Shown in pieces: positions 3,881 to 41,566 of a stretch of 44,088 nt of DNA. The DNA comes from Agarivorans sp. Alg241-V36 (GTDB lineage: Bacteria; Pseudomonadota; Gammaproteobacteria; Enterobacterales; Celerinatantimonadaceae): contig NZ_UNRE01000001.1 of NCBI RefSeq assembly GCF_900537085.1, positions 146,975-191,062 on the forward strand. Reading direction: 5' to 3'. The position numbers were made by a program, and so were the translations under genes. Below the pieces are notes generated by a model. That model saw only the letters and a list, made by a program, of their open reading frames with translations. It was not told where the DNA came from and did no database searches. Each line of letters starts with the position of its first letter. The first letter of the stretch is position 1.

Positions 3881-4150
<270 letters not shown>

Positions 4151-24826: not shown

Positions 24827-24917
24827 GGAGGGGTGGCAGAGTGGTCGAATGCACCGGTCTTGAAAACCGGCAAGGGTTAATAGCCCTTCGAGAGTTCAAA
24901 TCTCTCCTCCTCCGCCA
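24827..24917 (+). tRNA. tRNA-Ser (UGA)
   Basis: A 91-base class II tRNA with CCA encoded. The acceptor GGAGGGG (24827-24833) pairs with CTCCTCC (24907-24913). The anticodon loop reads CTTGAAA, giving UGA. A long variable arm (AAGGGTTAATAGCCCTT) is typical of Ser, and the T arm GAGAGTTCAAATCTCTC is complete. Confidence 0.96.
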
Positions 24918-24929
24918 TTATTTAGAAGA

Positions 24930-24955
24930 ACGCCAGCATTACGCTGGCGTTTTTC
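24930..24955 (+). terminator. Terminator downstream of tRNA-Ser
   Basis: ACGCCAGC (24930-24937) with GCTGGCGT (24943-24950), then a T-run. Confidence 0.87.
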
Positions 24956-25162
24956 GTTTCTGTATTCCCTTACATATAATATTGATAAATTGCTAGTTTA
25001 TTGCGCAAACTGCCAATAATCTCAGTTCTACTCTAAACTTATACCGCTTAATCCTTTAAATTATTATCCTGATGGGATATAAAGTTTGCTGCGCAGACGA
25101 TGCAAGGTCTGGCAACCCGCCCAATTAGTAGATTGATGTTTTAGTTACAGCGGAGAAAACGC

Positions 25163-25807
25163 TTGATAAACGTATTTCTGGTTGACGATCATGAGCTAGT
25201 GCGTACAGGGATCCGTCGCATTTTAGAAGACGTTCGAGGATTTAAAGTGGTTGGTGAAGCCGAGAGCGGAGAAAAAGCCGCTCAATGGTGCAGAAACAAC
25301 CAAGCCAACGTAATCTTAATGGATATGAACATGCCTGGTATTGGTGGCTTAGAGGCTACCCGCAAGATATTGCGTTACGATCCAGACGCCAAGATTATCG
25401 TACTAACCATTCACACCGAAAACCCATTTCCTACCAAGGTTATGCAGGCAGGTGCGTGTGGCTATCTAACTAAAAGCGCTGGCCCAGACGAAATGCTACA
25501 AGCGATTCGCGCGGTTAATGTAGGTCAACGTTACCTATCGCCAGAAATTGCCCAGCAAATGGCCTTGAGTCAGTTTAACCCTGCTGAAGATAATCCTTTT
25601 CAAAGTTTGTCTGAGCGTGAGTTACAGATCATGTTGATGATAACCAAAGGTGAAAAGGTTACGGATATCTCGGATCAGTTAAGCTTAAGCCCTAAAACGG
25701 TGAACTCTTATCGCTATCGCTTGTTCAGCAAGCTTAATATTAGCGGCGATGTAGAGCTAACTCACTTGGCCATTCGCCACGGCATGATTGATACCGACAA
25801 GCTGTAA
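25163..25807 (+). CDS. uvrY: Response regulator UvrY/GacA
   Basis: A 214-residue NarL/FixJ-type regulator, the partner of sensor BarA/GacS. It activates CsrB-type small RNAs and so relieves CsrA. Receiver domain: VDDHE (Asp 8, 9), phospho-acceptor in [12 protein letters not shown] (Asp about 54), and the conserved Lys in YLTKSAG. LuxR-type [23 protein letters not shown] and [20 protein letters not shown]. It starts at TTG with GGAG upstream; the resulting N-terminus matches E. coli UvrY ([14 protein letters not shown]). uvrC follows three bases after its stop, as in E. coli. Confidence 0.95.
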
Positions 25808-25809
25808 TT

Positions 25810-27642
25810 TTGCTCGAAGATAGCACTCCATTCGATAGTAAAAAGTTCCTAAGCCAGGTAACAGAAGCTAGCGGCATATACATGATGTATAACGCCGCTA
25901 ATGAAGTGATCTATGTAGGCAAAGCTAAATCACTTAAAAAGCGTTTAAGCAGTTATTTTCGTAAAAACGTAGATAGCAACAAAACCCGCGCGCTGGTTTC
26001 AAACATCGCCAAGGTAGAAGTCACGGTAACCCATACCGAAACCGAAGCGCTGATTCTTGAACACAACCTAATCAAAAAACACCTACCAAAATACAATGTA
26101 TTGCTGCGTGACGATAAGTCTTATCCCTACATTTTACTCAGTAAACACAAGCACCCCCGGATATCGATGCACCGTGGTGCTAAACGCAACAAAGGTGATT
26201 ATTTTGGCCCTTACCCTAATGGCAATGCGGTAAGAGAAAGTCTGCATTTGATGCAGAAACTGTTTCCTATTCGCCAGTGCAGCGATAGTGAATATGCCAA
26301 TCGGCAACGACCATGTTTACAGTATCAACTAAAGCGCTGCTCAGGACCCTGTGTGAATTTAATTAGCGATGAGGACTATAAGCAGCAAGTAGACCTCGCC
26401 AGCATGTTCCTAAAGGGCAAAAGCCAGCAGGTTATTAACCAACTGGCTGAGAAGATGACTACCGCCAGCGATAATCTAAACTTTGAAGCTGCTGCCGGTT
26501 TTAGAGATCAAATTCAAGCTTTACGTAAAGTACAAGAACAACAGTTTGTAAGTGGTAATACCGAACATAGCGATGTGCTTGGGTTTGCCTTTAGAAATGG
26601 CATTGCGGTTATTCACTTATTGTTAATTCGCGATGGTCAAGTATTAGGTAGCCGTTCTTATTATCCTAAGGTGCCTAAACAAGCAGACTTGCCGGAAGTA
26701 TTACGCAGCTTTGTTATGCAGTATTACTTGTCGGAGCAACGTAAAGGCAATCAACCAAATGAAGTGTTGCTGCCTGACATCGAAGGCGACTGGCCAGAAA
26801 TAGAAGCCGCTATCGAGAGCGAACTCGATTGTAAAGTTAAGCTGTTACAGCCTAAGCGTGGTGAGAAACTACGTTTTGTGGCACTTGCTAACACTAACGC
26901 TGAAAATGCGCTGTTAACTAAACTTAATCAAGAAGCCACTATTCATCATCGGGTAACCGAACTAGAAGCTTTGCTAAAGCAAGACAAGCCAATTAAACGC
27001 ATGGAGTGTTTTGACATCAGCCACACCCAAGGTGAAAGAACTGTAGCGTCTTGTGTGGTGTTTGACAGGCAAGGGCCCAATAAAGCTGAGTATCGCCGTT
27101 TTAATATTGAAGGTATTACTGGCGGCGATGATTACGCCGCAATGGCGCAAGCTTTAACCCGGCGCTATAAAAAAGCTCAACTGGCAGAAAAAATCCCAGA
27201 CGTACTGTTTATCGACGGTGGTAAGGGGCAATTGTCCGCGGCTTTTTCTAGCATAGAGCCGCTTAACCTTTCGCCAATGCCGCTGTTGGTTGGGGTCGCT
27301 AAAGGTACAACCCGTAAGCCAGGTTTAGAAACTCTGCTTATCGGTAAAGCAATGACAGAGATACACTTGCCCAGTGATTCCCCAGCATTACACTTAATCC
27401 AACACATTCGCGACGAAAGTCACCGCTTTGCCATTACCGGTCATCGTAATCGACGAGACAAGGCGCGTAAGACCAGCGTACTGGAAGACATTGATGGAGT
27501 AGGGGCAAAGCGTAGGCAAGCTCTACTCACCCATTTAGGGGGAATGCAGCAACTTAAAAGTGCCAGTGTAGACGAAATCAAAAAAGTTCCCGGAATTAGC
27601 CCTTCTTTGGCGCAAAAAATTTATGATTCGTTGCATCACTAG
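25810..27642 (+). CDS. uvrC: Excinuclease ABC subunit C
   Basis: A 610-residue dual-incision nuclease of nucleotide excision repair (E. coli UvrC is also 610). N-terminal GIY-YIG domain: [21 protein letters not shown] cysteine-rich stretch, then the UvrB-binding UVR motif ([20 protein letters not shown]). The C-terminal RNase-H-like endonuclease has [14 protein letters not shown] and [10 protein letters not shown]. Ends in a helix-hairpin-helix pair ([17 protein letters not shown]). The start is TTG, three bases after uvrY, so translation is probably coupled. Confidence 0.96.
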
Positions 27643-27688
27643 GCAAGATTAGGCAACATAGCGGCAGTAGTTTTATAAATGAAAAATA

Positions 27689-28240
27689 ATGATAAATATT
27701 CCAAATATACTAACCGCGTTTAGAATTGTATTAATTCCGTTTTTCTTAATAGCTTTTTACCTTCCCGTAGAGTGGGGCATGCTAGCGGCTGCTTTCATCT
27801 TTGGTTTAGCCGCAGCAACAGATTATTTAGACGGGTATCTTGCACGCCGTTTAGGTCAAACCACGCCTTTTGGTGCTTTTTTGGACCCCGTAGCTGACAA
27901 AGCAATGGTGGTGGCTGCGCTGGTAATATTAGTCGAGCATTATCAAACATTCTGGATAACCGTACCTGCAGTAATAATGATCTCTCGCGAAATTATTATT
28001 TCTGCACTTAGAGAGTGGATGGCTGAATTAGGCAAGCGATCGAGTGTTGCGGTATCTTGGATCGGTAAATATAAAACGGCAGCTCAAATGGCGGCGATTA
28101 CAGGTTTAACCGCACAAATAGACCCTTTGGTAACACAAGCTAGTTATGGTTTATTTTATATTGCGACCATTTTAACGCTGTGGTCTATGGTGAGTTACCT
28201 AGCTTTAGCTTGGCCAGAATTAAAGCAGAATGACAAATAA
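27689..28240 (+). CDS. pgsA: CDP-diacylglycerol--glycerol-3-phosphate 3-phosphatidyltransferase
   Basis: A 183-residue integral membrane enzyme that makes phosphatidylglycerol phosphate, the committed step to phosphatidylglycerol and cardiolipin. The CDP-alcohol phosphatidyltransferase motif D-G-x2-A-R-x8-G-x3-D-x3-D is intact ([20 protein letters not shown], then LDPVADK, about 46-70). About four to five hydrophobic helices. [20 protein letters not shown] matches the E. coli protein. It follows uvrC and precedes tRNA-Gly-Cys-Leu as in E. coli. Confidence 0.95.
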
Positions 28241-28295
28241 ACAGCGGCTTTAGCCTAAAAATCAAACGAACAGTTAGAAACTTACCAAAAGACAG

Positions 28296-28323
28296 TTGAC
28301 GTAGGGATTTGGGCCGCTAAAAT
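28296..28323 (+). promoter_or_regulatory. Sigma-70 promoter of first tRNA Gly-Cys-Leu set
   Basis: TTGACG (28296-28301), a 16-base spacer and TAAAAT (28318-28323), about 80 bases ahead of tRNA-Gly. Close to consensus, as expected for stable RNA. Confidence 0.65.
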
Positions 28324-28401
28324 GCACAGCACATTCAGCGGCAACGCTGGAGTGTTAAAGGCGCGTTACTTAGTGTAAATACAAAAGGTAATGCAGATGA
28401 A

Positions 28402-28477
28402 GCGGCACTAGCTCAGTTGGTAGAGCGCAACCTTGCCAAGGTTGAGGTCATCAGTTCGAACCTGATGTGCCGCTCCA
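28402..28477 (+). tRNA. glyW: tRNA-Gly (GCC), copy 1
   Basis: 76 bases including CCA. Acceptor GCGGCAC with GTGCCGC; the anticodon loop CTTGCCAA reads GCC. Same position after pgsA as E. coli glyW. It differs from copy 2 at 29203 only by one compensated pair in the T stem (ATCAG/CTGAT against ATCGG/CCGAT). Confidence 0.96.
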
Positions 28478-28495
28478 ATTTAACACAAGTAGTAT

Positions 28496-28569
28496 GGCGG
28501 GTTGGCAGAGTGGCTATGCAGCGGATTGCAAATCCGTGGACCTCGGTTCGACTCCGGGACCCGCCTCCA
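28496..28569 (+). tRNA. cysT: tRNA-Cys (GCA), copy 1
   Basis: 74 bases including CCA. Acceptor GGCGGGT with ACCCGCC; the anticodon loop ATTGCAAA reads GCA. Identical to the copy at 29297. Confidence 0.96.
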
Positions 28570-28587
28570 TACTATTAAAATTGTGTC

Positions 28588-28674
28588 GCCCGGGTGGTGA
28601 AATTGGTAGACACAAGGGATTTAAAATCCCTCGTCTGAAAGGACGTGCCGGTTCAAGTCCGGCCCCGGGCACCA
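28588..28674 (+). tRNA. leuZ: tRNA-Leu (UAA), copy 1
   Basis: 87 bases including CCA, class II with variable arm TCGTCTGAAAGGACG. Acceptor GCCCGGG with CCCGGGC; anticodon TAA in GATTTAAAATC. Two further copies follow at 28979 and 29388. Confidence 0.96.
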
Positions 28675-28978
28675 ACTCTTCTTGCTATTCTAAGTTCCAA
28701 TCTCCCTAAAAAGACTTAACTCATTGTAAAACTATACCTGTTTAGTTATATGAGTTGTTTAAGCCATTTAATCTCTAATTAAAACTAACTTTATGTTCGT
28801 TATATTTATAGCTGACTTCGCCGTTATTAAACCTGCAAAAGATTGAAAAGGCAGCTGCTAGATCGCTTTTTAAGCACTTGAATCAACTCCCTCAAAAAAT
28901 CCGTTGACTCATTTCTGTAATACGTTAAAGTACAACTCGTTTTCAGGGGCTAGCCCTTAGATAACAGCAAAACGTGTC
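28675..28978 (+). promoter_or_regulatory. Spacer between tRNA-Leu copies 1 and 2, with promoter
   Basis: About 300 AT-rich bases with no gene. The useful element is a sigma-70-like promoter: TTGACT (28904-28909), 16-base spacer, TAAAGT (28926-28931), about 48 bases before tRNA-Leu copy 2. It indicates that the second set (Leu, Gly, Cys, Leu) can be transcribed independently of the first. Confidence 0.55.
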
Positions 28979-29065
28979 GCCCGGGTGGTGAAATTGGTAG
29001 ACACAAGGGATTTAAAATCCCTCGTCTGAAAGGACGTGCCGGTTCAAGTCCGGCCCCGGGCACCA
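28979..29065 (+). tRNA. tRNA-Leu (UAA), copy 2
   Basis: Identical to the copy at 28588, and even the upstream bases GTGTC are the same, which points to a recent duplication. 87 bases including CCA. Confidence 0.96.
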
Positions 29066-29122
29066 GTTATTTGAGTTGGAATACTCGTTACTGCTTGAGT
29101 GGTAACAAAAGAAGTTTATTAA

Positions 29123-29181
29123 GCGGCACTAGCTCAGTGTGAGTATATAGAGTAGCGCAACCTAGTTGCTAACTCGCACAC
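29123..29181 (+). pseudogene. Decayed tRNA-Gly copy
   Basis: The first 15 bases (GCGGCACTAGCTCAG, preceded by TTAA as in copy 2) match tRNA-Gly exactly. Pieces of the D and anticodon arms follow in scrambled form (AGTAGCGCAACCT). The 3' half, T arm and acceptor complement are missing, so it cannot make a tRNA. A local hairpin, GCAAC CTA GTTGC, remains. Confidence 0.7.
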
Positions 29182-29202
29182 TAAATAGTGATAAAGAATT
29201 AA

Positions 29203-29278
29203 GCGGCACTAGCTCAGTTGGTAGAGCGCAACCTTGCCAAGGTTGAGGTCATCGGTTCGAACCCGATGTGCCGCTCCA
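29203..29278 (+). tRNA. tRNA-Gly (GCC), copy 2
   Basis: 76 bases with CCA. Acceptor GCGGCAC with GTGCCGC, anticodon GCC; T stem ATCGG/CCGAT. Confidence 0.96.
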
Positions 29279-29296
29279 AAATTTGTAATGCCTTTT

Positions 29297-29370
29297 GGCG
29301 GGTTGGCAGAGTGGCTATGCAGCGGATTGCAAATCCGTGGACCTCGGTTCGACTCCGGGACCCGCCTCCA
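29297..29370 (+). tRNA. tRNA-Cys (GCA), copy 2
   Basis: 74 bases with CCA, identical to the copy at 28496. Anticodon GCA. Confidence 0.96.
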
Positions 29371-29387
29371 TTACAAAGTAAAGTTTT

Positions 29388-29474
29388 GCCCGGGTGGTGA
29401 AATTGGTAGACACAAGGGATTTAAAATCCCTCGTCTGAAAGGACGTGCCGGTTCAAGTCCGGCCCCGGGCACCA
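29388..29474 (+). tRNA. tRNA-Leu (UAA), copy 3
   Basis: 87 bases with CCA, identical to copies 1 and 2. Anticodon TAA, class II variable arm. Confidence 0.96.
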
Positions 29475-29550: not shown

Positions 29551-29597
29551 CTCACCATGTTGGTGCTTGTTGAAGCGCATTGAGCAAAAACGGTGCG
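29551..29597 (+). promoter_or_regulatory. Two NtrC-like enhancer sites of the guanidine operon
   Basis: Site 1 (29551-29567) is CTCACCA-TGT-TGGTGCT, a perfect CACCA/TGGTG dyad close to the NtrC consensus TGCACCA-N3-TGGTGCA. Site 2 (29581-29597) is TGAGCAA-AAA-CGGTGCG, a weaker match whose centre lies 30 bases (about three helical turns) away. They lie about 87 and 117 bases upstream of the predicted start, a normal enhancer distance for sigma-54. Assignment to NtrC is inference from the motif and the nitrogen role of the operon. Confidence 0.65.
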
Positions 29598-29648: not shown

Positions 29649-29665
29649 TTGGCATAGCCATTGCT
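29649..29665 (+). promoter_or_regulatory. Sigma-54 (RpoN) promoter of the guanidine operon
   Basis: TTGGCATAGCCATTGCT matches the sigma-54 consensus TGGCAYR-N4-TTGCW at every fixed position, with -24 GG at 29651-29652 and -12 GC at 29663-29664. Transcription should start near 29675, just before the riboswitch leader. RpoN with NtrC activation is the standard arrangement for nitrogen-limitation genes. Confidence 0.82.
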
Positions 29666-29730
29666 ACTTTAACTTTGCGACATGAGAGATGTATGGCTCT
29701 GCCTCATCAAGAGCCGCTTAAAATTTGCAA

Positions 29731-29826
29731 TAGACATCTAGGGTTCCGGCTGCAACGCAGTGTCTGGACCGAGAGTTGTCAACCTCATAGAGGTTACACG
29801 GAGGGATAAAAGCCCGGGAGATGACA
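29731..29826 (+). promoter_or_regulatory. Guanidine-I riboswitch (ykkC) aptamer
   Basis: The leader contains the ykkC hallmark segments in order: CTAGGGTTCCG (29738-29748), GGACCGAGAG (29766-29775), ACACGGAGGGATAAAAG (29796-29812) and CCCGGGAGA (29813-29821). P1 closes by CATCT (29735-29739) with AGATG (29819-29823). Side hairpins are CTGC-AAC-GCAG and AACCTC-ATA-GAGGTT (29781-29795). Guanidine binding should stabilise P1 and permit transcription of the importer and degradation genes. It was long annotated as an orphan riboswitch of urea-carboxylase operons. Confidence 0.95.
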
Positions 29827-29854
29827 ATAAATACGTCTCTCATGTTTTTATTTT
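29816..29854 (+). terminator. Riboswitch-controlled intrinsic terminator
   Basis: GAGATG (29818-29823) pairs with CGTCTC (29834-29839) with one G-U pair, extendable at the base, followed by a T-rich run (29845-29854). The 5' arm is the 3' strand of the aptamer P1, so aptamer and terminator exclude each other: ligand-bound RNA should read through. The 3' arm can alternatively pair with 29681-29694. Confidence 0.8.
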
Positions 29855-29881
29855 AAAGTGCATAACCACATTGAGGTGACC

Positions 29882-30964
29882 ATGTTAAAACTAATTAAAT
29901 CTCCACTCCGTACTTTGGCCGTAGCAGCCACCATCGTTAGCGCCAGCGCGCTTAGTATTGCATCTGCTCAAGCAGACGATAAACCAACTTATAAACTCGC
30001 TTGGACAATCTATGTAGGTTGGATGCCGTGGGATTATGGAGCAGCCTCGGGCATTGTTGATAAGTGGGCCGACAAATACGATATCAATATCGAAGTAGTG
30101 CAGGTGAATGACTACATCGAATCAATTAACCAATACACCGCCGGTGGTTTTGATGCCACAGTAATGACCAACATGGACGCACTAACTATTCCAGCAGCCA
30201 GTGGTGTTGATTCAACAGCACTTATTGTTGGCGATTTTTCTAATGGTAACGACGGTGTTGTACTCAAAGGTGATAAAACTCTTGCCGACATTAAAGGCGA
30301 AAAAGTTAACTTAGTAGAGTTAAGTGTTTCGCATTACTTGTTAGCACGAGCATTAGAATCGGTTGATTTGAAAGAACGCGACATTAAAGTTGAAAACACC
30401 TCAGACGCTGATTTAGTTGCCGCATTTACCACTTCAGATGTTACCGCTGTTACCACCTGGAACCCGCTATTAAGTGAAATTATTTCAATGCCAGACACCA
30501 ACATGGTGTTCGACTCATCTAAGATCCCTGGCGAAATTATCGACTTACTAGTAGTTAATACCGATACCCTTAAGCAAGACCCTAAACTGGGTAAAGCCTT
30601 AACCGGCGCTTGGTATGAAATTATGGCAACTATGTCGGGCGACGACGAAGCAGCGACTAAAGCACGTGCGTTTATGGCTGAAGCTTCAGGTACTGACTTA
30701 GCCGGTTACGATGCGCAATTAGCCTCAACTAAAATGTTCTACCAAGCTGAAGATGCCGTTGATTTCACCAACAGCGCAACCCTAAAAAGCACCATGGCTA
30801 AAGTAGCCGAGTTTTCGCACCATCACGGTCTGTTAGGTGAAGGCGCGCCAGATGCTAGCTTTATCGGTATCGAAACTCCATCAGGTGTGTATGGCGATTC
30901 AAGTAACGTAAAACTTCGCTTTACAGCCGAGTACATGGACATGGCTGCTGACGGCAAACTATAA
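29882..30964 (+). CDS. Guanidine/urea-type ABC transporter substrate-binding protein
   Basis: A 360-residue periplasmic binding protein of the NMT1/TauA-like class found in carboxylase operons, here inferred to bind guanidine. A signal peptide (about 1-32, ending SIASAQA) is followed by LAWTIYVGWMPWDYGAASGI and VNDYIESINQYTAGGFDATV, where aromatic and acidic residues are suited to a small cation. I chose the ATG at 29882 with GAGGTGA directly upstream; an in-frame ATG at 29858 lacks such a site and spoils the signal peptide. First gene of the operon, eleven bases from the permease. Confidence 0.9.
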   Translation: MLKLIKSPLRTLAVAATIVSASALSIASAQADDKPTYKLAWTIYVGWMPWDYGAASGIVDKWADKYDINIEVVQVNDYIESINQYTAGGFDATVMTNMDALTIPAASGVDSTALIVGDFSNGNDGVVLKGDKTLADIKGEKVNLVELSVSHYLLARALESVDLKERDIKVENTSDADLVAAFTTSDVTAVTTWNPLLSEIISMPDTNMVFDSSKIPGEIIDLLVVNTDTLKQDPKLGKALTGAWYEIMATMSGDDEAATKARAFMAEASGTDLAGYDAQLASTKMFYQAEDAVDFTNSATLKSTMAKVAEFSHHHGLLGEGAPDASFIGIETPSGVYGDSSNVKLRFTAEYMDMAADGKL

Positions 30965-30974
30965 GGCTCTGCCT

Positions 30975-31799
30975 ATGACTCGCATAATTAATAAAAAACC
31001 TAGCCGCTTTGTGCGGCTAATGTTGGGCTTACTACCGTTCTTGCTGTTAATTGCTTTATACATGGCGGCATCGCAGGCGCGTTTGGCTGATAATCCAAAC
31101 GACAAGTTGTTGCCTGCAATGTCGAGTTTTGTGGAAGCAATTAACCGCATGGCCTTTGAGCCTAGCAAACGTAGTGGCGAATACTTAATGCTGGCAGATA
31201 CAGTAGCCAGCTTAACTCGCTTAGCGTTTGGGGTAGGGATCAGTGCTTTAGTGGCTTTAATGGTGGGTGTTGCCAATGGCATGGTGCCATTTGTACGCGC
31301 TCCTTTATCACCGCTGGTTACTGCCATCTCGCTGATTCCACCGATGGCGATTTTGCCAATTCTTTTCATTGTGTTTGGTTTGGGAGAGCTGTCGAAAGTG
31401 ATGTTGATCATTATTGGAATCTGTCCAATTATGATTAGAGATCTGCAGCTTCGCACCGATGTTCTGCCTAATGAACAGATCTTAAAAGCGCAAACCTTGG
31501 GAGCCTCCAGTTGGCAAACCATTATTGCCGTGGTTATTCCGCAAATCCTGCCAAAGCTAATCGAAGCAGTTCGCTTAACCTTGGGTAGCGCTTGGCTATT
31601 TTTGATTGCAGCCGAAGCGATTGCTGCCACAGAAGGTTTAGGTTATCGCATCTTCCTAATTCGCCGTTATTTAGCGATGGACGTAATTTTGCCTTACGTG
31701 CTATGGATTAGTGTATTGGCCTTTGTAATGGATTGGTTGCTACGCAAGTTGTCGGTGCATGCTTTTTCTTGGTATCACAAAACACAAGGAGACGCATAA
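30975..31799 (+). CDS. ABC transporter permease (guanidine importer)
   Basis: A 274-residue inner-membrane protein of the BPD_transp_1 (TauC/SsuC-like) family with about six hydrophobic helices. The cytoplasmic EAA loop, which docks to the ATPase, is seen in EQILKAQTLGASSWQTIIAV followed by VIPQILPKLIEAVR (about 172-205). It lies between the binding protein and the ATPase; its stop overlaps the ATPase start (TAATG). The substrate is inferred from the operon and its riboswitches. Confidence 0.9.
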   Translation: MTRIINKKPSRFVRLMLGLLPFLLLIALYMAASQARLADNPNDKLLPAMSSFVEAINRMAFEPSKRSGEYLMLADTVASLTRLAFGVGISALVALMVGVANGMVPFVRAPLSPLVTAISLIPPMAILPILFIVFGLGELSKVMLIIIGICPIMIRDLQLRTDVLPNEQILKAQTLGASSWQTIIAVVIPQILPKLIEAVRLTLGSAWLFLIAAEAIAATEGLGYRIFLIRRYLAMDVILPYVLWISVLAFVMDWLLRKLSVHAFSWYHKTQGDA

Positions 31800-32584
31800 T
31801 GAGCACTCCAATTATTCAAGCTGTAGACGTTTGGAAAGAATACGGCGACAACGTAGTGCTAGAGCGCTTAAACCTAAGTGTTGAAGAAGGCGAGTTTGTT
31901 AGCATTGTGGGCGCATCTGGTTGTGGTAAATCTACCTTTCTCAACTTGATGCTAGGTAACGAAACGGTAAGCCGCGGCAAGCTTTTACTCAATGGCGAAC
32001 CTTTACCTAATGAGCCTGGGCCAGAGCGCGGCATTGTGTTTCAAAAGTACTCAGTGTTTCCCCACTTAACGGCCGTACAAAACGTCATGCTAAGCGATGT
32101 ATTTGCCCAAGCGCCAATTCTTGCGAGTCTATTTGGTAAAGCCAAGCAACAGGCCTACAGCCAAGCTATGGCAATGTTAGACAAGGTAGGTTTAACCGAG
32201 GCGGCGCATAAATACCCAACCGAGATGTCTGGTGGTATGCAGCAGCGCTTAGCCATTGCTCAAGCGTTGATGAAAAAGCCAAAGATATTGTTACTAGACG
32301 AACCCTTTGGTGCGCTTGATCCCGGCATTCGAAAAGACATGCACAAGCTAGTTCATCAGTTGTGGCAAGAGCACAAACTTACCATTTTTATGATTACCCA
32401 CGATCTCTCCGAAGGTTTTAGCCTAGGCAATCGCCTATGGGTGTTTGATAAGCATCGTCATGATGCTCAACAACCCGAGCGCTTTGGCGCGCAAGTCACC
32501 TTCGATATTCCTATTAGCAAGGGCAGCGACGCTACTCGCTTTAGTGAAGAGATGAAACCGATTATTGATAAATCGGTGGCCTAA
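31799..32584 (+). CDS. ABC transporter ATP-binding protein (guanidine importer)
   Basis: A 261-residue ATPase. Walker A is GASGCGKST (about 39-47), Q-loop IVFQKYSVFPHL, signature MSGGMQQRLAIAQALMKKP (about 142-160), Walker B ILLLDEPFGALD, H-loop ITHD. The ATG at 31799 overlaps the permease stop and has AAGGAGA upstream; the frame is open further back, but that stretch lies within the permease gene. The C-terminal 50 residues (LWVFDKHRHDAQQPERFG) extend beyond the ATPase core. Confidence 0.92.
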   Translation: MSTPIIQAVDVWKEYGDNVVLERLNLSVEEGEFVSIVGASGCGKSTFLNLMLGNETVSRGKLLLNGEPLPNEPGPERGIVFQKYSVFPHLTAVQNVMLSDVFAQAPILASLFGKAKQQAYSQAMAMLDKVGLTEAAHKYPTEMSGGMQQRLAIAQALMKKPKILLLDEPFGALDPGIRKDMHKLVHQLWQEHKLTIFMITHDLSEGFSLGNRLWVFDKHRHDAQQPERFGAQVTFDIPISKGSDATRFSEEMKPIIDKSVA

Positions 32585-32596
32585 TAAGGACAAACT

Positions 32597-33352
32597 ATGA
32601 ATCAAAATATTTCCCAAGAGCCTATTTACCAAGAAGTAATAAACGGTGCCGCGCATTGGTCGGTAACCGTGCCTGCAGGTAAAACCTTGCGTTTTACCAA
32701 CCCTGAAGGGGCTTCAAACGTAAGCCTATTGTTTTATAACCCAAAAGATTTGTTAGAGCGTTATAACGCGCCCGATACCCTTAAATGCCAGCACACCTTT
32801 AAACTCACTAAAGGTAATTGCTTGTACTCCGATATGGGTCGTGTGTTCTGTTCTATTACCCGTGACGATACCGCTTGGATAGACAGCGTAGGCGGCTTAG
32901 CTAACAAACAAAAAGTCGCCGAAAAATGGGGCGAGCGCAGCTACCAAACTCAAGGCAATTTGTGGTTACAAAATGGCTACGACGCCATGCTGGTCGAGCT
33001 AGCTAAATATGGCTTAGGCAAACGTGATATGGCAGCGAATCTCAACCTATTTAGTAAGGTGGCAGCCGATGCTGAAGGCAACCTACAGTTTGAGCCAGGC
33101 GCTAGCAAAGCGGGGGATGTTATCGAGCTGCGTTTCGAAATGGACACCCTAGTGCTTATGACCACCTGCCCACATCCTATGAATCCTGCTAGCGAATACC
33201 CCAACCATGGTGTTGAAGTAGCCATGTTGGAAGCTGATCCCGTGAGCGAAGACGACTATTGCAGAAACTTTAGACCAGAGAATGGTCGTGGTTTTGAAAA
33301 TACCGAACGCTACCGCTGTGTTAGCCAAGCTAGCACTTGTTGTGAAGCTTAG
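32597..33352 (+). CDS. Carboxyguanidine deiminase subunit (urea carboxylase-associated protein, DUF1989)
   Basis: A 251-residue protein of the family once named urea carboxylase-associated protein 1. The two paired proteins (CgdA/CgdB) were shown in Pseudomonas to deiminate carboxyguanidine to allophanate plus ammonia. Features: [20 protein letters not shown] (about 26-45), [33 protein letters not shown], and the metal/active-site region [17 protein letters not shown] near 190-206. It has a Cys-rich tail ([11 protein letters not shown]). It is homologous to the next gene, and the pair probably forms a heteromer. I do not assign A or B. Confidence 0.88.
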
Positions 33353-33381
33353 TTGTAAACGCTAAACAAGGAACAATATTG

Positions 33382-34026
33382 ATGATCAAAGAAAGTGATT
33401 TACAAGCAGAACAAGCCAGCCAGCGAAACGTAGTTCCAGCAGGTGACTATTACATGCAGGAGCTCAAGGCCGGTCAAACTCTGCGAATTTTAGACTTAGA
33501 AGGTAACCAAGCTGCTGATACTTTGTTTTTTAGCACAGCAGATCCTAGTGAGCGGTACAGCGCCATGGATACTATTCGAGAGCAAGGCAATGTTTACTTA
33601 ACAGCAGGCACAAAATTGTTGTCAAACTTAGGCCGTGAAATGCTCACCATTACTGCCGATACTTGTGGTCGTCACGATACCTTAGGCGGCGCTTGTGCCA
33701 CCGAAAGTAATACCGTGCGTTACTCGCTAGATAAGAAATGCATGCACGCTTGTCGTGATAGCTGGTTGCTGGCCGTTGCCGAAAACGATCAATACGGCTT
33801 AACCAAACGCGATATTACCCACAACATTAATTTCTTTATGAACGTGCCAATTACTGCAGCTGGTGGTTTAACCTTTGAAGACGGCATTAGCGGCGCAGGT
33901 AAGTATGTAGAAATGCGCGCCGAAATGGACGTAATTGTTTTAATGTCTAACTGCCCGCAGTTAAACAACCCTTGTAACGGCTACAACCCAACGCCAGTAG
34001 AAATGTTGATTTGGGATGCAGTTTAA
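33382..34026 (+). CDS. Carboxyguanidine deiminase subunit (urea carboxylase-associated protein 2, DUF1989)
   Basis: A 214-residue paralogue and partner of the previous gene. Shared motifs are [20 protein letters not shown] (about 33-52), [38 protein letters not shown] and the DUF1989 signature [20 protein letters not shown] (about 192-211). The ATG at 33382, with AAGGAA eight bases upstream, is preferred to the adjacent TTG. Unlike the other operon genes, which are packed within about 30 bases of each other, it is followed by a 92-base gap holding a second riboswitch. Confidence 0.88.
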
Positions 34027-34033
34027 GCACAAG

Positions 34034-34114
34034 TAATAACTCTATAGACTAAGGCTAGGGACGACCCTAAACACGCCTTGTTATTAGCCGGGACGACCCG
34101 CAGTTCTCAGGTGA
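34034..34114 (+). promoter_or_regulatory. Guanidine-II riboswitch (mini-ykkC) inside the operon
   Basis: Two hairpins with the diagnostic ACGA loop: TAGGG-ACGA-CCCTA (34056-34069) and CGGG-ACGA-CCCG (34089-34100), 19 bases apart, which is the mini-ykkC architecture. Hairpin 1 is extended by AAGGC (34051-34055) with GCCTT (34075-34079) and by TAATAAC (34034-34040) with GTTATTA (34080-34086). CGCCT (34074-34078) could instead pair with AGGTG (34109-34113), the carboxylase ribosome-binding site. Ligand-driven loop-loop contact would then expose that site. The aptamer class is clear; the switching scheme is inference. Confidence 0.9.
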
Positions 34115-34118
34115 CACT

Positions 34119-37100
34119 ATGTTCGATAAAGTATTGATAGCCAACCGTGGCGCGATAGCTTGCCGGATCATTCGAACCCTTAACAAAATGAACATTGCCA
34201 GCGTGGCTATTTACAGCGACGCCGACGCAGACAGCCTTCATATTAGCCAAGCCAGCGAAGCCTATAGCTTGGGCGAAGGTTCAGCTAGCCAAACCTATCT
34301 AAACATTGACAAGATTTTTGCCATTGCCAAACAAACTGGAGCACAAGCCATTCATCCTGGCTATGGCTTTTTAAGTGAAAACCAAGAATTTGCCGAACGT
34401 TGTGAACAACAAGGTTTGGTGTTTTTAGGGCCTACCGCAGAGCAAATGAATGCCTTTGGCCTTAAACATCGTGCTCGTGAATTAGCCGAGCAAGCGCAAG
34501 TACCTTTATTACCGGGCAGCGGACTTTTAGAAGACCAACAACAAGCATTAAGCTGCGCCGAAGAACTGGGTTACCCAGTTATGCTAAAAAGCACCGCAGG
34601 TGGTGGTGGCATTGGTATGCAACGCTGCGACTCCGCAGAGCAGTTAAGCCAAGCCTTTGATAGCGTAAAACGCCTTAGCGAAAACAATTTTAGCAATGCA
34701 GGTTTATTCCTCGAGAAGTTTATTACCCAAGCGCGACACATCGAAGTACAAGTATTTGGTAACGGCAAGGGAGAAGTGCTTACGCTAGGCGAGCGCGACT
34801 GTTCTGCTCAGCGCCGCAATCAAAAAGTGATTGAAGAAACGCCGGCACCAAACTTAAGCCCGGCCATTCGCCAGCAATTACAACAAACCGCGCAGCAGCT
34901 TACTCAAAGCGTAAATTACCGCAGCGCTGGTACCGTAGAGTTTGTATTTGACCAGCAAAGCCAAGCTTTTTACTTTTTAGAAGTAAATACCCGTTTGCAG
35001 GTTGAACACGGCGTTACCGAGATGGTGTTTGGCGTAGATTTAGTGCAATGGATGGTAGAGCTAGGTTACGCTCAACTAGCTAAACAAGCTTATCCATTGG
35101 CAGATAAAGCGGCCAATTTACAAGCCTCTGGCCATGCTATTCAAGTTCGTTTATATGCCGAAGATCCTAATAAAGATTTCCAACCAAACGCCGGTCTGCT
35201 CAGCCATGTAGCTTGGCCTACAGGCGATGATTTAGTACTGCCACAAAACGACAGTTTACGTATCGACCATTGGATAGAAAGTGGGGTAGAAGTTTCTCCC
35301 TTTTTCGACCCCATGTTAGCTAAAGTGCAATACCATGCAGCCGACCGTGATTCGGCCATCGCCGGCTTAGCCAAGGCGCTACAGGCTTGCCAAGTGTATG
35401 GTATTGAGCACAACCTAGCCTACCTCAAGCAGTTGCTAACGCTACCCGCTTTAGAGCAAGGCACTTTACTTACTTCAAGCCTTAATAGCTTTGCTTATCG
35501 CCCTAGCACTATGGATGTGCTTAGTGCGGGTACCCAAACCACTATTCAAGATTACCCAGCGCGAAAAGGCTACTGGGACATTGGCGTGCCACCTTCAGGG
35601 CCAATGGATTCACAAAGCTTTTTGTTGCTTAATCAACTGCTGGGCAACCAAACAGATGCAGCGGGTTTAGAGATAACCCTGCAAGGGCCAACGCTTAAGT
35701 TTAATCAAGACAGCTTAGTAGTTGTTGGCGGCGCAGATATCGAGATTGCCTTAGATGGCCAAAGCCGTGCGATGTGGCAGGTATTTAAAGTAAGCGCTGG
35801 TCAAAGCTTGGCATTAGGTAAAGTTAGTGAGGCCGGTGCTCGCGCTTATTTAGCGGTAAGTGGCGGCATTCAATGTCCTGAGTATTTGGGCAGTAAAGCT
35901 ACTTTCACGCTAGGTCAGTTTGGCGGTCACGCAGGGCGAGCACTAAGAACCGGCGATGTATTACAACTGCCAGACGCTAGCCAATTAAGCACCATTGATG
36001 ATTTCTTACTAGGCCGAGAGCTGCAGCAAAAGCCGCAGATTACTCAACAGTGGAATATTCACGTAATTTACGGCCCACATGGTGCGCCAGACTTTTTCAC
36101 CGACCAAGACATCGAACAGTTTTTTGAAGCTACGTGGAAAGTGCATTTTAACTCTAGCCGAACTGGCGTGCGCCTAATTGGACCAAAGCCAGAATGGGCG
36201 CGCAGTGATGGCGGCGAAGCGGGCTTACATCCATCCAATATTCACGACAACGCCTACGCCGTAGGTAGCATCGATTTTACTGGAGACATGCCAGTGATCC
36301 TTGGTCCTGATGGCCCTAGTTTAGGTGGCTTTGTTTGTCCCGCAACCATTATTAAAGCCGACTTATGGAAGATGGGGCAGCTTAAAGCGGGCGATGAAAT
36401 AAATTTTATTCCAGTAAGTATTGAGCAAGCAGAACAAGCCGAGCGCGAGCAGCTGCAAAGTATCTCTTTGGGTACCGCTTACAATACCAACATTAGCGCT
36501 GCGCCTATCACAACGCCGATTGTTAAAACTCTAGCCAGTGAGCTTTATGGTGAAAAGGTAGTGTATCGCCCAGCTGGCGAAGACTATTTGCTCATAGAAT
36601 ATGGTCCGCAGCGTTTAGACATTGCCCTGCGTTTTAGAGTGCACGCTTTAATGCTGAACCTGCAGGAACAAAACATTGCAGGCATTGAAGAGCTTACTCC
36701 CGGTATTCGCTCATTACAGGTTCACTACAACAACTTGGAGCTGCCGCTAGAGCGCTTGTTAGCAATACTCGAGCAAGCAGAAGCAAGCTTGGGTGATATC
36801 GACCAACTTAGTGTGCCAGCGCGAGTAGTTCATCTGCCGCTATCTTGGGACGACGAAGCCACTCGTTTAGCGATTCAAAAGTATAACGACGTAGTACGTA
36901 AAGACGCGCCATGGTGCCCTGATAACATCGAGTTTATCCGCCGAATTAATGGTCTAGACACCGTTGAGCAAGTGAAGGACATTGTGTTTAACGCCAACTA
37001 CTTGGTAATGGGCTTAGGTGATGTTTACTTAGGCGCACCGGTAGCTACACCTATCGATCCTCGCCACCGCTTAGTGACCACTAAATACAACCCCGCTCGT

Positions 37101-37763
37101 ACTTGGACTCCAGAAAATGCAGTGGGTATTGGCGGCGCCTATTTATGTGTTTACGGCATGGAAGGACCGGGTGGTTACCAGTTTGTTGGCCGCACCCTGC
37201 AAATGTGGAATCGCTATCGCAGCACTCAAGAGTTCACTAAACCGTGGTTACTGCGCTTTTTTGATCAAATTAAGTTTTATCCAGTAAGTGCAGATGAACT
37301 CAAACAAATCCGCAAAGATTTTCCACGCGGCGATTACCCATTAAAAATTGAACAAACCGAATTCAGCCTAAAGGGTTATCAAGCGCTGTTAGATGAGCAA
37401 CAAGAGAGCATTCAAGCCTTTAAGCTAAATCAGCAACAAGCCTTTGAAGCAGAGCGCCAGCGCTGGGAAGAAAGCGGCCAAGCACATTTTTCTGCCGAAA
37501 CTGCCAACGAACAAACCGCTGACGAAGACGCCTTAGGCGATTCAGAGCTAGCTATCGAAAGCCATGTGGCGGGCAACCTTTGGCAAGTAATGGTTGAGCC
37601 CGGCCAAAGCGTTAAGTCTGGTCAGGTTGTAGCAGTGTTAGAAGCGATGAAAATGGAATTAGAAGTAACCGCGCCTTCAAGCGGTGTGATTAAACAGCTT
37701 AGCCAAGCTCAGGGTTCACAAGTACATGCAGGCCAGCGCTTAATGGTTATGGAGACCGAATAA
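34119..37763 (+). CDS. Biotin-dependent guanidine carboxylase (annotated urea carboxylase)
   Basis: A 1214-residue enzyme that carboxylates its substrate using ATP and bicarbonate. Order: biotin carboxylase with ATP-grasp (about 1-450; FDKVLIANRGAIACRIIRTL, glycine loop STAGGGGIGMQ, EVNTRLQVEHGVTE); carboxyltransferase in two parts, KipA-like (about 465-790; TIQDYPARKGYWDIGVPPSG) and KipI-like (about 800-1010; ELTPGIRSLQVHYNN); and C-terminal biotin carrier with EAMKME, biotinyl Lys about 1178. Urea carboxylases share this layout. I call guanidine because of two guanidine riboswitches and the adjacent deiminase pair. ATG at 34119 behind AGGTGA. Confidence 0.92.
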   Translation: MFDKVLIANRGAIACRIIRTLNKMNIASVAIYSDADADSLHISQASEAYSLGEGSASQTYLNIDKIFAIAKQTGAQAIHPGYGFLSENQEFAERCEQQGLVFLGPTAEQMNAFGLKHRARELAEQAQVPLLPGSGLLEDQQQALSCAEELGYPVMLKSTAGGGGIGMQRCDSAEQLSQAFDSVKRLSENNFSNAGLFLEKFITQARHIEVQVFGNGKGEVLTLGERDCSAQRRNQKVIEETPAPNLSPAIRQQLQQTAQQLTQSVNYRSAGTVEFVFDQQSQAFYFLEVNTRLQVEHGVTEMVFGVDLVQWMVELGYAQLAKQAYPLADKAANLQASGHAIQVRLYAEDPNKDFQPNAGLLSHVAWPTGDDLVLPQNDSLRIDHWIESGVEVSPFFDPMLAKVQYHAADRDSAIAGLAKALQACQVYGIEHNLAYLKQLLTLPALEQGTLLTSSLNSFAYRPSTMDVLSAGTQTTIQDYPARKGYWDIGVPPSGPMDSQSFLLLNQLLGNQTDAAGLEITLQGPTLKFNQDSLVVVGGADIEIALDGQSRAMWQVFKVSAGQSLALGKVSEAGARAYLAVSGGIQCPEYLGSKATFTLGQFGGHAGRALRTGDVLQLPDASQLSTIDDFLLGRELQQKPQITQQWNIHVIYGPHGAPDFFTDQDIEQFFEATWKVHFNSSRTGVRLIGPKPEWARSDGGEAGLHPSNIHDNAYAVGSIDFTGDMPVILGPDGPSLGGFVCPATIIKADLWKMGQLKAGDEINFIPVSIEQAEQAEREQLQSISLGTAYNTNISAAPITTPIVKTLASELYGEKVVYRPAGEDYLLIEYGPQRLDIALRFRVHALMLNLQEQNIAGIEELTPGIRSLQVHYNNLELPLERLLAILEQAEASLGDIDQLSVPARVVHLPLSWDDEATRLAIQKYNDVVRKDAPWCPDNIEFIRRINGLDTVEQVKDIVFNANYLVMGLGDVYLGAPVATPIDPRHRLVTTKYNPARTWTPENAVGIGGAYLCVYGMEGPGGYQFVGRTLQMWNRYRSTQEFTKPWLLRFFDQIKFYPVSADELKQIRKDFPRGDYPLKIEQTEFSLKGYQALLDEQQESIQAFKLNQQQAFEAERQRWEESGQAHFSAETANEQTADEDALGDSELAIESHVAGNLWQVMVEPGQSVKSGQVVAVLEAMKMELEVTAPSSGVIKQLSQAQGSQVHAGQRLMVMETE

Positions 37764-37764
37764 A

Positions 37765-39585
37765 ATGACGAAAAGTACTTATACTATTTCACAACTACGC
37801 GAGGCTTACCTAAGCAAACAGTTTAGCGCTAAGCAGTATTTACAGCAGAAGTTAGCGGCCGTAAAAAGCGATAGCAACAACTGTTGGATCTCAACAATTA
37901 GCGAACAGCAGTTAGCCGACTACTTAGAAGGTTTAGCGCAGCAAGACATTGCCGATTTACCTTTATATGGTGTGCCGTTTGCCATTAAAGACAACATTGA
38001 TTTAGACCAACTGCCAACCACTGCTGGTTGTAAAGAATACAGCTACCAACCCAGCGACAGCGCCTTTGTGGTTAAGCAATTAATTGCCGCCGGCGCAGTG
38101 CCACTAGGTAAAACTAACCTAGACCAGTTTGCCACTGGCTTAGTAGGCACGCGTAGCCCTTGGGGAGCGGTAAAAAACAGTTTTGATCCAAGCATGATTT
38201 CTGGTGGTTCTAGCTCAGGCAGCGCAGTAAGTGTTGCCTTGGGGCAAGTGTGTTTCTCCTTAGGTACCGACACTGCTGGATCTGGCCGAGTGCCAGCGGC
38301 GCTAAACAACATACTAGGGCTTAAAGCTACCAAAGGTTTGCTTAGTTGCAGTGGTGTAGTGCCAGCCTGTAAAAGCCTAGATTGTGTCACCTTATTTGCT
38401 CATACCAGTGACGACTTAAACGTGCTGCTGGATGTAGCAGGCCAGTACGACGAAGAGGATTGCTATGCAAGGCCAAACCAAACCAGCAATCAAGCTCAGC
38501 ACTATCAACCTTTACAAGAGTTAACCTCACTTAAAATTGGTGTGCCTAAAGCCAGTGACCTGGCGTTTTTTGATAACCCAGAAACAGAAAAGTTGTTCAA
38601 GCAAAGCTTAAAGCAGCTAGAGCGCCTAGGTGCAGAGTTAGTTGAGTTAGATTTTGAACCCTTTTTAGCCGCAGCTAAATTGCTGTATGAAGGCCCATGG
38701 GTTGCCGAGCGTTATGCGGCTATTCAAGACTTCTTTGAAAAAGATCCCAGCCAATGTTTACCGGTTATTCAAACCATTATTGGCAGCGCCACTAAACATA
38801 AAGCGGTAGACGCCTTTAAAGCCTTTTATCAACTGCAAGCCTATAAAGTGGTTTGTGATCAGCTAGTAAACCAAGTAGATGCCATTGTTACCCCTACTGC
38901 GGGTAGCACTTACAGCATTGCCCAGTTGCAAGAAGATCCCATTCAACTTAACTCCAACATGGGTTACTACACCAACTTTATGAACTTGCTCGACTACAGC
39001 GCGGTTGCGGTACCTGCTGGCTTTTACCAAAACCAGCAAGGTAATACCCACAGCTTTGGTATTACCCTGTTTAGCGATGCTTATTGTGACAGAAAGATCC
39101 TCAGCATGGCGGCGCTTATTCAACAAGACAATGGCTTTAGTTTAGGGGCTAGCAAGCAAGCTTTACCGGCACTGCAAACCCCTGCAAGCATAGAAGATGA
39201 TTACATGGAACTGGCAGTGTGCGGTGCCCACTTGTCGGGTTTACCGCTTAACGGTCAGCTAACCGAGCGAGCAGGGCAGTTAGTTAAAGCTACCCAAAGT
39301 GCCGCCAAATATAAACTCTATGCACTGGCTGGTGGACCACCAGTACGCCCCGGAATGATTCGTGATGAAGAAAACGGCGTAGCCATAGCGGTAGAGGTTT
39401 GGCGTTTACCTAAACAACACCTTGGCAGTTTTTTACAAGGCATCCCGCACCCATTGGGTTTAGGCAAAATAGAACTAAGTGACGGCACTTGGGTAAACAG
39501 CTTTATTTGTGAAGGCTACGCCACCAACACCGCAAAAGATGTAAGCGAATTTGCTGGCTGGCGCGCTTACCTTGCCAGCCTATAG
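37765..39585 (+). CDS. atzF: Allophanate hydrolase
   Basis: A 606-residue amidase-signature enzyme that splits allophanate into CO2 and two ammonium, the last pathway step. The catalytic triad is Lys about 75 (GVPFAIKDNIDL), cis-Ser about 149 (ISGGSSSGSAVSV) and nucleophile Ser about 173 (GTDTAGSGRVPA). The C-terminal domain (about 475-606; LAVCGAHLSGLPLNGQL, YALAGGPPVRPGMI) is typical of AtzF/DUR1-type enzymes, where it assists decarboxylation. It starts one base after the carboxylase stop, so they are co-translated. Ends at a strong terminator. Confidence 0.95.
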   Translation: MTKSTYTISQLREAYLSKQFSAKQYLQQKLAAVKSDSNNCWISTISEQQLADYLEGLAQQDIADLPLYGVPFAIKDNIDLDQLPTTAGCKEYSYQPSDSAFVVKQLIAAGAVPLGKTNLDQFATGLVGTRSPWGAVKNSFDPSMISGGSSSGSAVSVALGQVCFSLGTDTAGSGRVPAALNNILGLKATKGLLSCSGVVPACKSLDCVTLFAHTSDDLNVLLDVAGQYDEEDCYARPNQTSNQAQHYQPLQELTSLKIGVPKASDLAFFDNPETEKLFKQSLKQLERLGAELVELDFEPFLAAAKLLYEGPWVAERYAAIQDFFEKDPSQCLPVIQTIIGSATKHKAVDAFKAFYQLQAYKVVCDQLVNQVDAIVTPTAGSTYSIAQLQEDPIQLNSNMGYYTNFMNLLDYSAVAVPAGFYQNQQGNTHSFGITLFSDAYCDRKILSMAALIQQDNGFSLGASKQALPALQTPASIEDDYMELAVCGAHLSGLPLNGQLTERAGQLVKATQSAAKYKLYALAGGPPVRPGMIRDEENGVAIAVEVWRLPKQHLGSFLQGIPHPLGLGKIELSDGTWVNSFICEGYATNTAKDVSEFAGWRAYLASL

Positions 39586-40441: not shown

Positions 40442-41566
40442 CTATCCTATATGTTGGCTCTTCGGGTCAAAGCGTTGGGCAATATCCCAGATGTAACCGA
40501 GTAACTCCCTGGCGATAGCTGTTACCACTTTGTTGTATTCTTTACCGCGATGTTTGAGCTGGGCGAAGCGTCGACATAATCGAAGCTGAGCCTCCCATGA
40601 ACGCTGTTGTAGTTTTATTGATTGGTCTTGCTGGCGTATCAGTAACTCTCGCGAAACTTTGGGTGGAAAGCGGTAAGCCCAAGCCGCTTCTATCAGTATT
40701 CGCCGAGCATGAGTATTTCCACACTTGGTAATACCGCCTTGCTTTTGTCTGTTCCCACTGGAGTACTCCGAGGGCGTTAAGCCCACAAAATTCATCAGTG
40801 AACGCGGGTTAGCAAAACGGCGCATGTCTCCGAGTTCGGCTACAAGAGTAATGGCCGATAAGAAGCGTATGCCACGCAATACCGTTAAGTATTGCACTAG
40901 CGGATACCAAGACCAATCTTGGGCAATTATCTGTAGCTCTTGCTCAAGATGCTGAAGCCGCTCATAGCGCTCGGTAACAATGTTGATGTAGTGCTGAAAG
41001 GTGAGCTTCTTGGCAGGCTCTAAGAAGTGAATATCTGCCAAGTGCCGCTTGTAGGCTTCATTCCAGACTTGCCGACCTGTGCAAGGATGACCATTGCGTA
41101 ACAAGAACAGCTTTAAACGTTGCCGCGCTTGGCGACAATCAAGCATGGCATCTTCTCGACAGCGGATTAAGTCGCGCACTGCTTCGTCATCAGCGTTGGG
41201 CACATGGATAGAGTGAATCAATCCAGCTCGCGCCATTCTCGCTAATGCGATGGCATCACGCCTATCTGTTTTGACTTTATCACCCGGCGCTTTAGGGATA
41301 AGGGCGGGAGCCACTACCCAGCATTCAATACCGTGTTTCGCTAAATGACGATATAGCCAAAATCAGCACGGCCCAGCTTCATAAACTAAACAGAGATGGG
41401 TAGCCAAGCCTTTGTATTTTTTGATAAGTTTGTTGATAGAACGAATATTGGTGGGGATGGTGCCATGGAACACAGGCTCATCTCTCGAATTATCAACACA
41501 ATAAGCGACATCTGTGGTCTCCTTGTGAACATCTAGTCCAATGAAAAACGTGCTAGATTTAGACAT
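40442..41566 (-). pseudogene. IS110-family transposase, interrupted by in-frame TGA
   Basis: Reading from ATG 41566 (behind AGGAGA), the N-terminal DEDD RuvC-like domain begins FFIGLDVHKETTDVAYCVD and continues to YEAGPC. It then meets TGA (41365-41363) and resumes in the same frame with FWLYRHLAKHGIECWVV. Family members read GPCG at this point, so a GGA codon has become TGA. The rest is intact: KTDRRDAIALARMARAG, and the Transposase_20 domain LRGIRFLSAITLVAELGDMR with the conserved SSGNRQKQGGITKCG serine region. The single nonsense codon suggests recent inactivation. Confidence 0.88.

Follow-up and report, generated by a model that had tools for sequence, protein, structure and literature searches.

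Guanidine-assimilation operons that carry two riboswitch classes have already been described. In the accessible portion of one report, Raoultella, Erwinia and Klebsiella keep importer and deiminase genes with a guanidine-I riboswitch, and place a carboxylase and an allophanate hydrolase gene directly downstream under guanidine-II (PMC12186494). In Vreelandella boliviensis (Sinn et al. 2025, PMC12508155), the operon is, in the excerpts available, arranged as in several other bacteria, with guanidine-I in front and guanidine-II before gca. Probing of both V. boliviensis RNAs showed that each binds guanidine, with an apparent dissociation constant (KD) of 44 μM for guanidine-I and, for guanidine-II, apparent KD values of 93 μM for guanidine and 83 μM for methylguanidine. 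The operon proteins rise strongly on guanidine, and control by two riboswitches of different specificity is named there as a possible topic for further study. Here, we examine an operon of this kind in Agarivorans sp. Alg241-V36, using a stretch of 44,088 nucleotides (nt) from assembly GCF_900537085.1 (contig NZ_UNRE01000001.1, forward-strand positions 146,975 to 191,062), hereafter the window; all coordinates below are window positions.

The window operon has the same two-class layout as those of Raoultella, Erwinia and Klebsiella, in another genus. As in V. boliviensis, the 5′ leader contains guanidine-I and a guanidine-II aptamer separates cgdB from the carboxylase gene, together with an ATP-binding cassette (ABC) importer, two deiminase genes and an allophanate hydrolase gene; unlike V. 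boliviensis, the window operon has no methylguanidine genes between carboxylase and hydrolase. A sequence-only reading of this DNA took the arrangement to be one not known from earlier descriptions, but it is in print for the organisms above, so the architecture is known and the window is an added case. What may be new are two features of the operon start, a sigma54-type start and a leader helix that we call P0. A term search of the PMC12186494 text found no discussion of a promoter or antiterminator, and the excerpts of PMC12508155 contain no mention of either feature for V. boliviensis. The literature that we searched, which leaves out most subscription papers, yielded no report of a guanidine riboswitch with sigma54 or NtrC and none of a leader antiterminator for guanidine-I; the text examined on ykkC antitermination treats PRPP.

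Our analysis indicates that this known operon of the carboxylase pathway is probably gated three times in series. At initiation, the RNA would start near position 29675 from a sigma54 promoter that NtrC presumably activates when nitrogen is limiting. During elongation without guanidine, a terminator at 29816–29854 would halt transcription; with guanidine, the folded guanidine-I aptamer would hold the GGGAG that the terminator needs, the terminator's 3′ arm would pair with the start of the leader as P0, and the polymerase would continue. At the carboxylase, guanidine-II would alter the RNA immediately ahead of the ribosome site, raising expression of the gene. We are more tentative about the specific form of this scheme, which we judge close to evenly balanced: P0 would be a long-range helix closing the whole aptamer, joining the start of the sigma54 transcript to the terminator's 3′ arm, and together with guanidine-II it would form a three-step AND gate requiring nitrogen limitation, then guanidine during elongation and again at the carboxylase.

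The sigma54 −24/−12 consensus reads YTGGCACG-N4-TTGCW. About 60 nt upstream of guanidine-I, the window holds TTGGCATAGCCATTGCT (29649–29665, +), which agrees with this consensus at 11 of 13 letters and keeps the GG-N10-GC spacing exactly (−24 GG at 29651–29652, −12 GC at 29663–29664). Sites matching at least 10 letters occur within 150 nt before guanidine-I in 47 of 57 loci, whereas the remaining DNA of these loci predicts 0.95. Within the order, Enterobacterales, the figure is 33 of 37 loci; loci of one genus are not independent, and the fairer count is by genus, with 14 of 17 genera carrying the site throughout. Among loci of named relatives (80 kept of 577 relatives, 73 with enough flank, overlapping the other locus sets), 46 of 67 have it. 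The genome also encodes RpoN (523.6 bits) and NtrC (767.7 bits). A weak candidate enhancer, the NtrC-like dyad CTCACCATGTTGGTGCT, lies at 29551–29567 with three mismatches to the consensus, and two other loci (L022 and L023) have TGCACCGTTGTGGTGCT-like NtrC sites about 158 nt before guanidine-I. Dyads with at most two mismatches were found in 51 of 57 loci (mean 1.82 mismatches, compared with 2.85 when shuffled), in a search that partly picks up the sigma54 site itself and has a weak control; the presence of such dyads upstream of the sigma54-type site in many loci is therefore only suggestive. Elsewhere in the window, TTGGCTCGCTGCTTGCG at 2299–2315 (+) is another sigma54-like match with 11 of 13 letters.

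At the head of the operon, the guanidine-I aptamer proposed from sequence was recovered at 29727–29822 (+) as a full-model match to Rfam RF00442 (87.3 bits, gathering threshold 63, E-value 2e-14, model positions 1–107), the only one in the genome. The overlapping terminator was likewise borne out at 29816–29854 (+), consisting of a stem, GGGAGATG / CGTCTCTC (29816–29823 / 29834–29841), which overlaps the 3′ end of the aptamer and is followed by ATG and TTTTTATTTT, and a T-rich tail. By sequence and fold, this is the overlapping intrinsic terminator of an RF00442 ON switch. A terminator scan did not list it because that scan accepts only loops of at most 8 nt.

The proposed antiterminator strand lies just downstream of the predicted start. 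Positions 29679–29694 (+) can form 16 pairs with 29831–29846 (+), a segment that shares the terminator's 3′ arm, and the duplex has an energy of −24.2 kcal/mol, compared with a shuffle mean of −11.7 (reached by 0 of 300 shuffles). When 29674–29860 is folded, P0 is present and the terminator absent (−60.1 kcal/mol, z −3.55); when the leader is omitted, the terminator stem forms. In an alignment of 13 sequences from two genera, 11 of them distinct, 94.9% of cells are paired and 4 of the 16 pairs have changed on both sides. The paired share, the number of cells with both partners changed (13) and the covariation score (0.318, compared with 0.169 in shuffles) lie above all 500 shuffles and slid versions (at most 0.091), and RNAalifold selects P0 unaided. 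Covariation in the same alignment speaks neither for nor against the terminator stem. More widely, the duplex beat shuffled leaders at the 0.05 level in 43 of 55 loci, two further loci having no usable leader; a simpler test was passed by 40 of 67 loci of named relatives, and, in 22 additional loci from the phylum, P0 passed at 5 of the 9 sites that could be read. Together, these comparisons suggest that P0 is probably an antiterminator.

The same pairing could arise if the leader merely resembled the GGGAGA tail of the aptamer, or if the two strands were inverted protein-binding DNA sites, and P0 would then not be an antiterminator. A GAGAGA/TCTCTC core is indeed invariant and common to leader and aptamer tail, and leaders of other genera pair fairly well too, with a mean duplex energy of −18.1 kcal/mol. 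Own leaders, however, average −26.5 kcal/mol, which is 8 kcal/mol better than foreign ones, whereas an upstream control stretch differs by only 1.5 (own −15.9, foreign −14.4). The own leader ranks first in 15 of 57 loci and among the top 5% in 27. As for a DNA dyad, the compensatory changes fall outside the core, and several of the pairs are G-U, which would break a dyad but keep an RNA helix. We therefore consider this alternative rather unlikely.

Several observations at the operon start, together with two at guanidine-II that are given below, weigh against triple gating. Among the 17 genera of the order, 3 lack a sigma54-type site of at least 10 letters. Of 500 shuffles, 162 reach the real number of P0 pairs changed on both sides and 468 the number of pair types, so neither count stands out; against leaders of other genera, only 14 of 33 pass the 95% mark, and P0 fails in 12 of 55, 27 of 67 and 4 of 9 loci in the three tests. 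In addition, the guanidine-I platforms of five loci (L027, L028, L033, L050 and L051) have no clear T-rich tail, and because of this, guanidine-I may act there by a mechanism other than an intrinsic terminator.

The second switch lies before the carboxylase gene, where the sequence-only reading had placed a guanidine-II aptamer with twin ACGA hairpins some 4.2 kilobases (kb) downstream of the first. Rfam RF01068 matches 34053–34101 (+) over the full model (positions 1–48, 33.8 bits, gathering threshold 32, E-value 0.0036), 4231 nt from guanidine-I, and nowhere else in the genome. This score is barely above the cut-off, and the equivalent position in relatives reaches 45.6 bits (in G118). The twin hairpins, TAGGG-ACGA-CCCTA and CGGG-ACGA-CCCG, supply the two ACGR loops of RF01068; the stretch folded alone is not unusually stable (z 0.32, −1.12 and −0.23). 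Both RNAs of the window presumably bind guanidine as their published counterparts do. The carboxylase ATG at 34119 follows the end of the second hairpin by 18 nt, and in 25 of 36 loci this spacing is 16–20 nt, which points to translation initiation as the output of guanidine-II.

How guanidine-II would reach the ribosome site is less clear. In the parts of the published work available, a linker hides the ribosome site in the E. coli model (PMC9300104) and a flank helix does so in the Pseudomonas model (PMC9561414). Across our 36 loci, pairing of the ribosome site beyond shuffles was seen neither with the 5′ flank (0/36) nor with the linker (0/36), and forcing both hairpins changed its modelled mean accessibility from 0.39 to 0.42, with 5 loci up and 2 down. 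These are the two guanidine-II results that count against the proposed gating. Pairing with the arm of hairpin 2 plus the spacer was found in 3 of 29 loci, with hairpin 1 in 4 of 30 and with hairpin 2 in 2 of 30, in a test restricted to loci with hairpins at most 60 nt away; nearly all of the positive loci belong to one genus (L031, L035 and L040), joined by L034 for hairpin 1. A further candidate, an outer stem flanking hairpin 1 (AAGGC/GCCTT in the window), appeared conserved on visual inspection but exceeded shuffles in only 4 of 36 loci and was rejected as a general feature. Because the models treat neither kissing loops nor ligand, we take the failed masking tests as missing support for Shine-Dalgarno masking by guanidine-II and not as its disproof. 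A masking partner was not seen in flank or linker, which raises doubt whether the E. coli and Pseudomonas models apply to this operon.

The lack of a masking partner in flank or linker, with hairpin pairing in few loci, would fit a guanidine-II switch that works mainly through RNA stability or Rho-dependent termination instead of hiding the ribosome site. So would two loci, L050 (in G072) and L051 (in G104), in which 185 and 230 nt separate the intact hairpins from the carboxylase ATG, as though an insertion had pushed switch and gene apart, and a published indication, in the part of PMC12508155 at hand, of a possible link between mRNA level and translation. The 16–20 nt spacing of most loci is nevertheless the position expected of a translational switch, and Pseudomonas guanidine-II changes ribosome loading in vitro, as far as the accessible text reports. 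We regard action through stability or Rho as unlikely, if the strongest of the alternatives. Of the two gates in series proposed from sequence, the presence of both classes in one gene order thus stands, while guanidine-II as an independent translational gate found no general support in the masking tests.

Serial control further requires that both switches lie on one RNA. Gene families were assigned by NCBIfam and Pfam matches, and aptamers by Rfam at gathering thresholds; the importer, deiminase and carboxylase identities proposed earlier agree with these assignments. All genes are on the + strand, with guanidine-I in front. The importer comprises a substrate-binding protein (29882–30964; TIGR03427, 554.7 bits), a permease (30975–31799; PF00528) and an ATPase (31799–32584; PF00005). 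For its first gene, the most likely start is ATG 29882, preceded by a ribosome site at 29873, rather than GTG 29858. There follow two genes for DUF1989 proteins, at 32597–33352 (TIGR03425, 316.8 bits) and 33379–34026 (TIGR03424, 333.3 bits), which we take to be carboxyguanidine deiminase subunits. Beyond guanidine-II come a carboxylase of the urea/guanidine carboxylase family (34119–37763; TIGR02712, 1851.5 bits) and an allophanate hydrolase (37765–39585; TIGR02713, 751.8 bits). The model TIGR02712 is itself named for urea carboxylase; the riboswitches and deiminase genes suggest guanidine as the substrate.

If the carboxylase had its own promoter upstream of guanidine-II, the riboswitches would sit on separate transcripts and not in series. 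Some separate transcription could be read from V. boliviensis grown on ammonium, where, in the excerpts of PMC12508155, carboxylase, hydrolase and transporter ATPase were at about 1/1000 of the induced level and most other proteins were undetected. In the window, the second deiminase stop and the carboxylase ATG are only 92 nt apart. Consensus scans of the + strand, which other promoter types escape, gave no sigma70-like match between 29525 and 39606 and, between 29300 and 39600, no sigma54-like match of at least 10 of 13 letters besides that at 29649–29665. These results agree with the single transcript assumed in the sequence-only reading, and a separate carboxylase promoter appears improbable.

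The arrangement is widespread among relatives. Of 12 genomes in the family, 10 carry both classes, one guanidine-II alone and one neither. The genome with guanidine-II alone (G007; loci L004 and L059) shows no match to the operon proteins in the 10 kb examined. Among 394 sampled genomes of the order, guanidine-I occurs in 38 and guanidine-II in 95. An Rfam guanidine-II match lies downstream of guanidine-I on the same strand in 28 of the 38, at 4142–4398 nt in 27 and at 6768 nt in one. Eight of the remaining ten lack an Rfam match in the corresponding gap but do have the hairpins; of the last two, the contig of G131 ends early and G191 has no match to the operon proteins. Under a strict rule, two ACGR hairpins stand between the second deiminase and carboxylase genes in 35 of the 36 order loci that hold both genes, and in the 36th (L057) one of the two hairpins is good and the other imperfect. 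Since all 36 loci that could be tested have hairpins ahead of the carboxylase, selection probably keeps both switches in the order. The sequence importer, deiminases, carboxylase is kept in the 35 loci of the order that were examined for it, with a hydrolase match next in 30. At the longer spacing of 6768 nt (L035, in G100), the importer genes are only 26–40% identical, as though the transporter had been swapped under the same two switches.

Outside the order, 28 other genomes of the class have guanidine-I, of which 14 have a guanidine-II match somewhere; loci were examined in 20 of the 28. Among 15 loci with the second deiminase and carboxylase genes, the gap holds an Rfam guanidine-II match in nine (one below the cut-off), the twin motif only in one and neither in five. 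The two-switch arrangement is therefore common there but not fixed (10 of 15 usable loci). For the 73 loci of named relatives, a motif search of 6-kb flanks, which undercounts, found both classes in 45, guanidine-I only in 19, the twin motif only in 7 and neither in 2.

Upstream of the operon, the window carries eight tRNA genes by Rfam (24827–29471, +), seven of them in 28402–29471 with near-identical repeats, and some listed open reading frames in 24827–29471 overlie tRNA genes. Beyond the operon, an open reading frame of 290 amino acids (40442–41314, −) presumably encodes a protein resembling an IS110-type transposase.

Our proposed P0 differs from the helix of that name in related riboswitches. 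In the accessible part of Knappenberger et al. 2018 (PMC6031431), an end-joining P0 belongs to the phosphoribosyl pyrophosphate (PRPP) aptamer and is said to be absent from guanidine-I. As in the PRPP and guanosine tetraphosphate (ppGpp) riboswitches, to the extent the available text describes them, the ends of a ykkC-type aptamer would pair with one another and contribute to the expression platform. In those riboswitches, P0 forms part of the ligand pocket, whereas P0 of the window is a different helix belonging to the expression platform; its 5′ strand lies 33–48 nt before the aptamer, and its partner is the terminator's 3′ arm. If P0 acts as proposed, the published statement that guanidine-I has no end-joining helix would hold only for the bare aptamer, and the leader helix would offer a concrete, mutable antiterminator for guanidine-I. 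The value of this case is that the sigma54-type start and the leader helix make serial control directly testable, and its interest lies in the reason for keeping both classes in series. For these bacteria, the sigma54-type site suggests a link between guanidine use and nitrogen limitation.

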